Made by a program: the position numbers and the translations under genes
Notes under the pieces: generated by a model
The model's input: only the letters and a program-made list of their open reading frames with translations
What the model was told of the DNA's origin: nothing
The model's database searches: none
NCBI RefSeq assembly: GCF_964204645.1
Contig: NC_134026.1
Location: forward strand, 21,842,650 to 21,906,649
Direction of reading: 5' to 3'
DNA length: 64,000 nucleotides
Origin: Tubulanus polymorphus
Lineage: Eukaryota > Nemertea > Palaeonemertea > Tubulaniformes > Tubulanidae
Shown here: in pieces, positions 14,301 through 16,990 of the stretch
Layout of the letters: every line of letters starts with the position of its first letter
How positions within the stretch are numbered: the stretch's first letter is position 1

Positions 14301-16990
14301 GATAGCCTACCATCTAATAATCGACAACAGACGTATTGAATCTGAGGGTATGTATGTAACCTCTGTAAAAAGTGATACGATGGACAGACCCTTAAAAGCC
14401 CCCTTTAAAATTTAAGAACATGAATGAATGATTTTCTAATTCGTCTCAATTGTCGTGCATATAGGCTGTGGTTTCATTTTGCGATCATATGTTTGTGAAA
14501 AATGTAGTTGAATATTTCAGCCGCAAAAATGGATGTACCTGACTTCTTTTATGCATCTAGTCCTCCCGTACATGAGTCGTTCATTACGGTAAGTCTTTTG
14601 TAAAATCTAATCAAACAGGTTTGACCTTTGATTGTTTCAGCGTCGTCGAAGATGGACCTCGGCGATTTTTATTTAGCCTCGAGCCCGCCGACCAATGAGT
14701 CATACATTACAGTAAGATGCTCAAATTAAGCTAGCAATCACATTATTCTACTTACTCGTAGTTTCCATATCACTTCATTTCTCATTTATTGCGTAACGGA
14801 TCTTTCCCCTGTTCTTTGTTGTCCGCGAATTATTAAATGTGTGTTTCATATCAACTTGAATGTCGGTCTTGTATTCTCCCGTAACTCGTTTTATGACTCC
14901 GAAAATTGCTTTTTGCTTATTTAATCTTCTTCATTTCATCGTTTTGTACATATCGATTATTTCACTTGATAGGGTTTAGTTTATTTCGTCTATAAGATAC
15001 TTGTTATTCTCGTGTGAAGTTAAGAAACTGAAGAAAAATAATCCTGCATGCTACAATTATTGAGTATAGTAATTCCCCCGAAAAACCTTTGAAATCATAT
15101 ATACAGAAAACCATCGGCAATATGGAGAACCTTTCAATCCACCAACTTATTTATGAAAACCTGTACCATACCATACCACACCATACCATAACATACCATT
15201 AAACAACCATTATACTAAATTTTGTATCTTTGATTGCTTTAGAAAACCGACTTACGTGAAATTTAACAAACATAACATAACATGTATTTCTTTTTAAAAA
15301 GAAACTTGTCATAACTGGCCCTCTTCTTAAAAAAACATAGAAAAACTAATGGGGTAAAATGATGCACTTTTTTGTGTAGATGGTTTTATGCACGGATCTC
15401 TTGTTTGGTAGAATAGAGATATGATTTTGGTATTATGAGCTTGGTATTAGGAATCACTTAGAAACGGCAGCATTTTATGATGAAAAGGTTTGAAAGAATG
15501 ATTTTGTGCAGAATATATACATTTTCATCGTACATCGAATCCTGCCGTGAGATGAAAATCACAGAATAGTTACATCAGCGCAACTTAGGGATAAGGAATT
15601 TTTATTCTTGATGAGATGTTTTATTTTGTATCATTTTGCACAATACAATAGACTAGGTTGATGGAAGGATTGGTGCGCCAAGCCTTTTAAGATAATATGC
15701 ATTATTTCTGATTTTGTTTTGTTACTTTTGTGAATTGTTTCAGGCGAGACCTATCACTCCACTACGCCCACATCCAGAGCGGATGCCAGGTATGTGTCGA
15801 ATTTGATAATTTACACCAAGGCCTTGCGGAAAATCTACTGAGTGAGTTTCTGTAGGCTACCTCAATATCAAACTTGTTTTCAAAAAACTTATATTTCGCA
15901 GAGCTGAAACATTCTGGACATACTTTAGAACCATTGTTGGCCACTGAACGAAAAATTGCGACACCAATGAAGAGGGCTAAGTGGCACCTTGGTAAGTGTA
16001 AACATATGAAATGGCATCACTAAATCCTATCTCTGTGTCATATAGGTCTGTATGATAAGCGGTTTGTTTTGTAGGAATCCGATCGCAAAGTAAACCCCAC
16101 GATATTATGCATGAAGTATTTAGGGCGATGAAAACGCTGGATTATGTGAGTTTAGTGTTTGCTATTAGTTATTAGGTGAATAGCTGATTAGCTCATCAGG
16201 TGAATGAGTGACTCATTCACTTGATGAAGCTTCTATACATTACATTAGTAGCGATAGCTCATGTGTCAAATAAATAGTTAACCTATATAGTACTACTCGT
16301 CTCGTTATTTATTCTAAACCCGGATTACACGGCTACTCTACGAATCTTGGGTTAACGTGATTGTGATATTTATATTCCAAATTTTTTATAAAACTGAATT
16401 ATTTGTTTTTGTATACATGTATTGATTTCAGTAAAAGTAAGATACGCGGGCTGTTTATATTTTTAGCAATGGAAAATTATCAACTCTTTTCATGTCCGTG
16501 TCCGGCGTATAAACCCAATAACAAATGGAGAGGTAACTGTCGATGTCTGCTGCGATGTAAAATTTAATTCTTGCGACTGGATATTTATTCGGATGTCAAA
16601 TTTTCAGGTTAAGATGGCATTGCAACTTTATCAAGTCGATCCTAAGAGTTACTTGTTAGACTTCAAAAGTTTGACCAGTGAAAATCAAGAAGGTATAAAA
16701 CTTCTTCCATTGATCTAATACTTCTTAGCTACCATGGTATCAATTTTAAGATGATTGCTACCATAGAATCACTACTTTGATGTCAAAAATTGAAAAGCCT
16801 AGGCCTACCCGAAATATACAGCCTTACCGTTTATATTGTATTTAATTGTGTTTCAGATTCAGAAGCAATTGAAGATTCTGGTATGTCATCGTCGGTGAAT
16901 CGGAGTTTGTGCGCGCCGACAAAGCAGGGTCATCAGACCTTAGAATTCTTTGAAATGTGTGCTAACCTCATCACAACACTGGCTCGTTAA
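11306..16990 (+). CDS. PRKAA2: 5'-AMP-activated protein kinase catalytic subunit alpha
   Basis: Complete gene; every exon phase joins. Exons: 11306-11405, 12286-12427, 12537-12630, 12903-13047, 13130-13217, 13303-13372, 13472-13520, 13600-13705, 13824-13929, 14233-14347, then either 14521-14588 or 14641-14711, then 15744-15789, 15902-15991, 16075-16145, 16467-16532, 16608-16692, 16857-16990. The protein is 524 or 525 aa. Residues 16-270 are the Ser/Thr kinase: glycine loop GVGTFGKV (25-32), Lys47, HRD Asp141, DFG Asp159, and activation-loop Thr174 in [10 protein letters not shown], the LKB1 target. The autoinhibitory/UBA-like segment ([14 protein letters not shown]) follows, then the linker with RPHPERMP and the beta/gamma-binding C-terminal domain (KAKWHLGI-like, [14 protein letters not shown] at the end). 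It is the energy-sensing kinase of the alpha-beta-gamma heterotrimer. The C-terminus is closest to vertebrate alpha-2, though many invertebrates have a single alpha. Confidence 0.97.
14521..14588 (+). CDS. PRKAA2: AMPK alpha alternative exon 11a
   Basis: A 68-bp exon bounded by AATATTTCAG and GTAAGT. It enters in phase 1 and leaves in phase 0. It encodes [20 protein letters not shown] then FIT, the stretch just after the autoinhibitory domain that corresponds to DFYLATSPP in vertebrate alpha subunits. Exon 11b, 52 bp downstream, has the same phases and a homologous product. Confidence 0.85.
14641..14711 (+). CDS. PRKAA2: AMPK alpha alternative exon 11b
   Basis: A 71-bp exon bounded by ATTGTTTCAG and GTAAGA. 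It encodes [20 protein letters not shown] then SYIT, closer than 11a to the vertebrate DFYLASSPP sequence. If it is joined after 11a it is read out of frame and meets TAG at its twelfth codon, so inclusion of both would truncate the protein. Confidence 0.88.
15164..15199. repeat. CCATA pentanucleotide microsatellite
   Basis: Seven or so imperfect CCATA/ACCAT units in the AMPK alpha intron between the alternative exons and exon 12. Confidence 0.85.

Follow-up and report, generated by a model that had tools for sequence, protein, structure and literature searches.

In the palaeonemertean ribbon worm Tubulanus polymorphus, the gene for the alpha subunit of AMP-activated protein kinase (AMPK) contains two neighbouring homologous exons, A and B, which very probably form a one-of-two (mutually exclusive) cassette, a prediction made because only A alone or B alone keeps the reading frame open. 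Animal cells depend on AMPK as a central energy switch, in which two short motifs, one of them alpha-RIM1, couple the AMP signal at gamma to the kinase; the A/B swap would offer two presumably working versions of alpha-RIM1 while the rest of the protein is identical. The explanation that best fits our analysis joins a cassette placed at alpha-RIM1 with an exclusivity that is based on a short intron and a frame lock, and we give this joint reading a probability of about 0.75.

The AMPK alpha gene and its exon pair

The window analyzed here is a stretch of 64,000 nucleotides, in which exon assembly places the coding part of the AMPK alpha gene at 11306-16990 (+). The gene is built of ten exons, followed by A or B and then by six exons, one of which ends at 16532. 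Its stop-free products are 524 amino acids long with A and 525 amino acids long with B. The best protein match of the A form is the T. polymorphus '5'-AMP-activated protein kinase catalytic subunit alpha-2-like isoform X2' (P0001), to which it is identical in 524/524 residues, and the alignment of the assembled protein to human alpha-2 chains spans 10-495 and the tail. In this alignment we find the kinase domain with its Thr172 loop (the Thr172 equivalent is T174), the autoinhibitory domain, the RIM1/RIM2 linker and the C-terminal domain; the Pfam domains given for P0001, which has the same sequence, are also consistent with AMPK alpha membership. The match to isoform X2 and the human alignment thus confirm the identity proposed in the preliminary description of this DNA, and the gene is predicted from its sequence to encode an AMPK alpha subunit capable of catalysis and of assembly with beta and gamma. 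A whole-genome search (84 matches; best 82 of 258 candidates scored) found no second AMPK alpha gene, and among these best 82 candidates the matches beyond query residue 285 are all located at the AMPK alpha locus, with the other listed matches in the kinase domain. The features around the exon pair are as follows.

14233..14347 (+): constitutive exon before the pair; encodes alpha-RIM1 in its first half, with 1 base left over (phase 1)
14348..14520 (+): 173-bp intron upstream of exon A, from the exon assembly
14521..14588 (+): exon A (68 bp), encoding residues 339-361 and shared with the public X2 isoform
14589..14640 (+): intron between A and B, 52 bp; candidate branch-point adenines 22, 36 and 43 nt from the A donor
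14641..14711 (+): exon B, 71 bp, begins at residue 339; read from the sequence, no record match
14712..15743 (+): 1032-bp intron downstream of exon B, longer than any other in the gene; no third exon copy found inside
15744..15789 (+): constitutive exon 12 with alpha-RIM2 (RPHPERMP), as defined in PMC4104029
15902..15991 (+): exon 13, bearing the stop that the frame assembly reaches when A and B are both skipped

Both exons have GT-AG splice sites, a phase-1 start and a phase-0 end, and the coordinates, lengths, splice sites, phases and spacing given earlier for the pair were all recovered to the base. When A and B are joined, a TAG appears in frame at codon 12 of exon B and the product ends after 372 residues; when both are skipped, exons 12-13 are frameshifted and the stop is reached after 368 residues. 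Retention of the 52-bp intron results in a stop after 365 residues. The stops that had been predicted for joint inclusion and for double skipping are therefore real features of the frames, and so is the one-of-two logic drawn from them, as A alone and B alone are the only open frames among the combinations that were read.

The public record adds to this picture. The identity of isoform X2 with the A form supports the splicing of exon A and, since the annotated form is named X2, the name implies at least one further isoform. We infer that this was hardly a homology-only choice, as the annotation picked the less usual core, F-F-Y. No match to exon B was found in transcript or protein records, where the A form alone matched a public protein. 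The P0001 protein cluster has two members with the shorter form (A) as its representative, which fits the existence of an X1 form that carries exon B.

Homology and constraint

The alignment of A to B scores 11.5, compared to a mean of -14.2 (SD 4.0) and a maximum of 6.0 for random segments, a set of just under 20,000 + strand segments of the window that were each aligned to exon A. Over the 23 aligned codons 27/69 bases differ, which rules out an assembly duplication as the source of the pair, and these differences are distributed 5/5/17 over codon positions 1/2/3. Fifteen of the 23 residues are identical, yet just three of the codons are. Nei-Gojobori analysis results in saturated synonymous sites and a dN of 0.24, and when 27 substitutions were placed at random, 0/20,000 placements retained 15 residues (the maximum was 13 when starting from A and 14 when starting from B). 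Based on the saturated synonymous sites, the low dN and the random placements, the duplication is judged to be old, and both exons look coding and look to be held as protein. A tblastn search with the A and B peptides for a third copy over 10000-17500 of the window gave A and B as the sole strong matches.

Position of the swapped segment

In human alpha1, alpha-RIM1 covers residues 343-353 and alpha-RIM2 residues 369-379 in Q13131 numbering, as these motifs are defined in PMC4104029, and the mTORC1-site serine is given as S347 or S356 in alpha1 and as S345 in alpha2 (PMC12055038). Human numbering was transferred via this serine and by alignment to the 552-residue human alpha2 chain. The preliminary description had located the exon pair in the linker between the autoinhibitory domain and RPHPERMP; the linker placement holds, but the exon is not a mere spacer before RPHPERMP, as the transferred numbering makes it encode the C-terminal half of alpha-RIM1. 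The exon junction falls within the motif, with the first half (RIESE) supplied by the constitutive exon and the second half by A or B. The equivalents of human alpha1 F342-Y343-L344 are F348-Y349-L350 in B and F347-F348-Y349 in A. The mTORC1-site serine (SPP) is kept in both exons (S352 of the A form, S353 of the B form), and so is the ES(F/Y)IT end, while alpha-RIM2 is encoded in the next, constitutive exon and is unaffected. The swap is thereby predicted to spare the mTORC1 site as well as the motif that reads AMP, and to alter the other gamma contact.

The human structures described in PMC6274893 indicate what this contact does: in AMP-bound AMPK, I335/M336 and F342/Y343 meet R171 and F179 of gamma1 at CBS2, the F342/Y343 contacts are required for AMP relief of autoinhibition, and F342D/Y343D complexes lack the AMP response. 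In T. polymorphus, an AMPK gamma-like exon (L037, contig C10, about 9836886-9836990) reads HKRILRFVYLY. Compared with HKRILKFLKLF, which we take to be the human gamma1 counterpart of this stretch, the one locus that was read keeps K170, R171 and F175, with Arg in place of K174 and Tyr in place of F179.

The first Phe of the linker core is followed by Tyr in 139/142 fetched homologues (five rows that were misread by the pattern were read by eye), a sample that is taken from the top of ranked lists, is rich in bivalve isoforms and is unbalanced. The three exceptions are P0001 itself (the A form), P0120, whose core DFFLATSPP has Phe at the Tyr343 position, and Lineus longissimus isoform X2 (P0121), whose core NFFVAPSSPPVTESYIT has Phe there as in exon A. 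Because the Lineus longissimus isoform shares this Phe, the putative alpha-RIM1 switch may be old in the ribbon-worm phylum. The Phe and PPV are the sole A-like marks of this isoform, which scores 24.3 bits against exon A and against exon B alike. As to which copy is ancestral, the signs are mixed: exon B keeps the FYL core, and exon A keeps an EAAK start and a length that recur in annelids and arthropods, several of each group taken together; in a crude pairwise scoring 108/142 homologues are nearer to B, 32 are nearer to A (P0001 itself included) and 2 are equal.

In oysters the linker varies in another manner. Their many AMPK alpha isoforms (among them P0031, P0042, P0059, P0060, P0062, P0082 and P0093; Ostrea edulis) have varied stretches before and after a constant core, so that in bivalves this linker seems to be a hot spot for splicing, reached by another route. 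A truncated AMPK alpha isoform is also attributed to oysters, but our literature search did not find it.

How exclusivity could arise

We suggest that a single linker exon was duplicated in tandem long ago, which produced a two-member cassette in the AMPK alpha gene of T. polymorphus, from which splicing would choose A or B. The joining of A to B would be hindered by the 52-bp intron, which allows at most 43 nt from the A donor to any candidate branch-point adenine, and transcripts with both exons or with neither would run into early stops and would presumably be removed by nonsense-mediated decay. In the protein, the choice would rewrite the second half of alpha-RIM1, F-Y-L in B versus F-F-Y in A, at the place that packs on the CBS2 face of gamma in AMP-bound human AMPK. 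The A and B isoforms may then differ in how well AMP detaches the autoinhibitory domain from the kinase, and with this in activation threshold or Thr172 protection.

The splicing part of this proposal is based on intron length. The intron between A and B is shorter than 41/41 control introns, all of which are at least 75 bp long. Sixteen of these are the other introns of AMPK alpha (75-1032 bp), so that the earlier remark that they are mostly over 70 bp applies in fact to 16/16. Six (135-1842 bp) come from a neighbouring gene that we call PDE4-like, a name given by eye, and exclude the intron between that gene's own duplicated exons. The remaining 19 (78-498 bp) come from kinase exon pairs, for which 19 of 20 fetched genomic stretches, with 20 exon pairs, were used and 19 introns were counted, with L020 left out; splice sites were scored here with a hand-set matrix. 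A first pass resolved 11 pairs at 80-474 bp, of which L014 and L024 rest on weak sites; wider limits then gave 78, 78, 95, 114, 150, 288, 339 and 498 bp for 8 of the 9 remaining pairs, and the two smallest gaps, of 63 and 72 bp, were among the pairs that needed these wider limits.

Work on vertebrates places the limit of steric interference at 50 nt from donor to branch point (PMC5740500; PMC7969005). The candidate adenines in the A-B intron, which are predicted from sequence, all lie closer than this limit of ~50 nt. Introns near 50 nt do get spliced in some animals. As the A-B intron is shorter than every control intron, exclusivity most likely arises from the short intron together with the frame lock, and a steric block is probably its main cause. 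The frame lock should be regarded as an imperfect second barrier, because among human clusters with frame-breaking lengths joining reads were nonetheless reported in 83 (22%), and similar exons that lie side by side in human are in many cases not exclusive (PMC5740500). RNA pairing between intron elements was also considered; short inverted repeats alone were found, with a fold z-score of 0.72 that is not above shuffles, and a docking site as the exon selector is not supported, as its signal does not rise above chance. With a hand-set matrix the A donor scores 6.3 and the A acceptor 0.6, compared to 1.3 and 3.7 for B, a combination of a strong-donor A and a strong-acceptor B in which regulators could tip the choice.

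Possible effect on the AMP response and alternative explanations

What the swap does to the enzyme is less certain. It had been suggested before that the switch could tune nucleotide or phosphatase sensitivity, and from the human structures, and by analogy with a mutant that is harsher than the natural change, an altered AMP response appears to have slightly less than even odds. Two points act as counterweights: a change of Tyr to Phe is mild compared to the published F342D/Y343D, and F179 of gamma, the partner residue, is Tyr in the T. polymorphus gamma locus that was read. A bolder version, in which splicing adjusts how sensitive ribbon-worm AMPK is to AMP and the natural changes of A (Phe for Tyr343, Tyr for Leu344) shift the threshold in certain tissues, stages or low oxygen, we consider unlikely. 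Another hypothesis is that both isoforms exist but sense nucleotides equally well, either since the linker is tolerant or since the segment matters for a different partner or for the context of a phosphorylation site. The alpha-linker is reported to be largely disordered (PMC4827068), exon A retains the F342 equivalent and the serine, and the oyster isoforms hold the core of this linker constant but vary on its two flanks. Yet Tyr occupies the Y343 position in nearly all of the homologues (139/142) and the double mutant of PMC6274893 is unresponsive to AMP; a neutral swap is regarded as plausible at well below even odds.

The origin of exclusivity can also be explained differently. Regulators, followed by decay of the wrong transcripts, could impose it in place of the short intron, with A-B joining taking place; the frequent joining reads in frame-breaking human clusters (PMC5740500) and the complementary donor and acceptor strengths of the two exons, a layout open to regulation as far as the hand-set matrix can tell, speak in favor of this option, which is nevertheless opposed by an intron that is below 41/41 controls, so that we see in it a considerable chance but a minority one. 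It is improbable that one exon alone is used and the other is a decaying duplicate. Exon B indeed lacks a transcript or protein match and exon A deviates from the usual F-Y core, but both copies are under constraint, splice sites are intact on A and on B, and the annotated form has A whereas B is the one with the usual core. Finally, joint inclusion or skipping might be used on purpose, as a dose switch that lowers AMPK through decay; early stops do follow from both wrong outcomes, but such a switch leaves unexplained why A and B both keep a working protein sequence, and we hold it to be highly improbable.

Comparison with known systems

Duplicated mutually exclusive exons are an already known arrangement. 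For AMPK alpha, keyword literature searches (AMPK, Nemertea, exon duplication), judged by title and the start of the abstract and covering mostly open papers, retrieved no mutually exclusive exon pair among the papers listed. Within this scope the preliminary statement that no such pair had been described stands, although the A isoform is already publicly annotated. The closest system in mechanism is that of OGDH exons 4a/4b, an exclusive pair in a gene of energy metabolism with a size-limited intron between its exons, where, as presented in PMC7969005, branch points at 25-41 nt from the donor were mapped by experiment in a vertebrate, whereas the AMPK alpha pair has candidate adenines in a 52-bp intron. 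The closest in biology are coq-2 and the oyster alternative oxidase (AOX). The exclusive exons of helminth coq-2 (PMC7434440, with annelid and mollusc among its keywords) are likewise a splicing switch in a metabolic gene, but in an enzyme of quinone synthesis and shown by RNA-seq and genetics, and the oyster alternative oxidase has a duplicated exon that is alternatively spliced in a spiralian energy gene, although it is another protein and is presented in PMC5589949 as stress-adaptive; the AMPK alpha pair, in contrast to both, is known from sequence.

Mammals also have two alpha versions that differ in the linker, alpha1 and alpha2, and when the alpha1 loop with alpha-RIM2 is swapped into alpha2 the response to the AMP-mimetic C2 is altered (PMC4104029). 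These are, however, two genes, whereas in T. polymorphus one alpha gene was found (among the best 82 of 258 candidates) and the change is in alpha-RIM1. The oyster AMPK alpha isoforms resemble our case in that the same linker is alternatively spliced, but there the flanks differ and the core is constant within a species, and no swapped core was seen in the fetched sample. If our reading is true, splicing can diversify the energy sensor even where an animal has just one AMPK alpha gene, beside the switches in coq-2, AOX and OGDH.

Other features of the window

The PDE4-like gene contains two homologous copies of a catalytic-domain exon, at 56276-56398 (-) and 55742-55864 (-), which are 123 bp each and 411 bp apart. 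They are identical in 33/41 residues, with differences of 5/5/20 by codon position, and form a second candidate exclusive pair in the window, though here joint inclusion keeps the frame. Since this neighbouring gene has a duplicated exon of its own, such a layout is perhaps no rarity in the T. polymorphus genome.

Close upstream of the AMPK alpha gene, on the opposite strand, coding-like frames are found at about 10008-10702 (-), which by eye we take to be armadillo-repeat-like. Two very similar long open frames, 22904-24364 (-) and 29124-30554 (-), of 486 and 476 amino acids, lie ~6 kb apart and are an apparent tandem duplicate.
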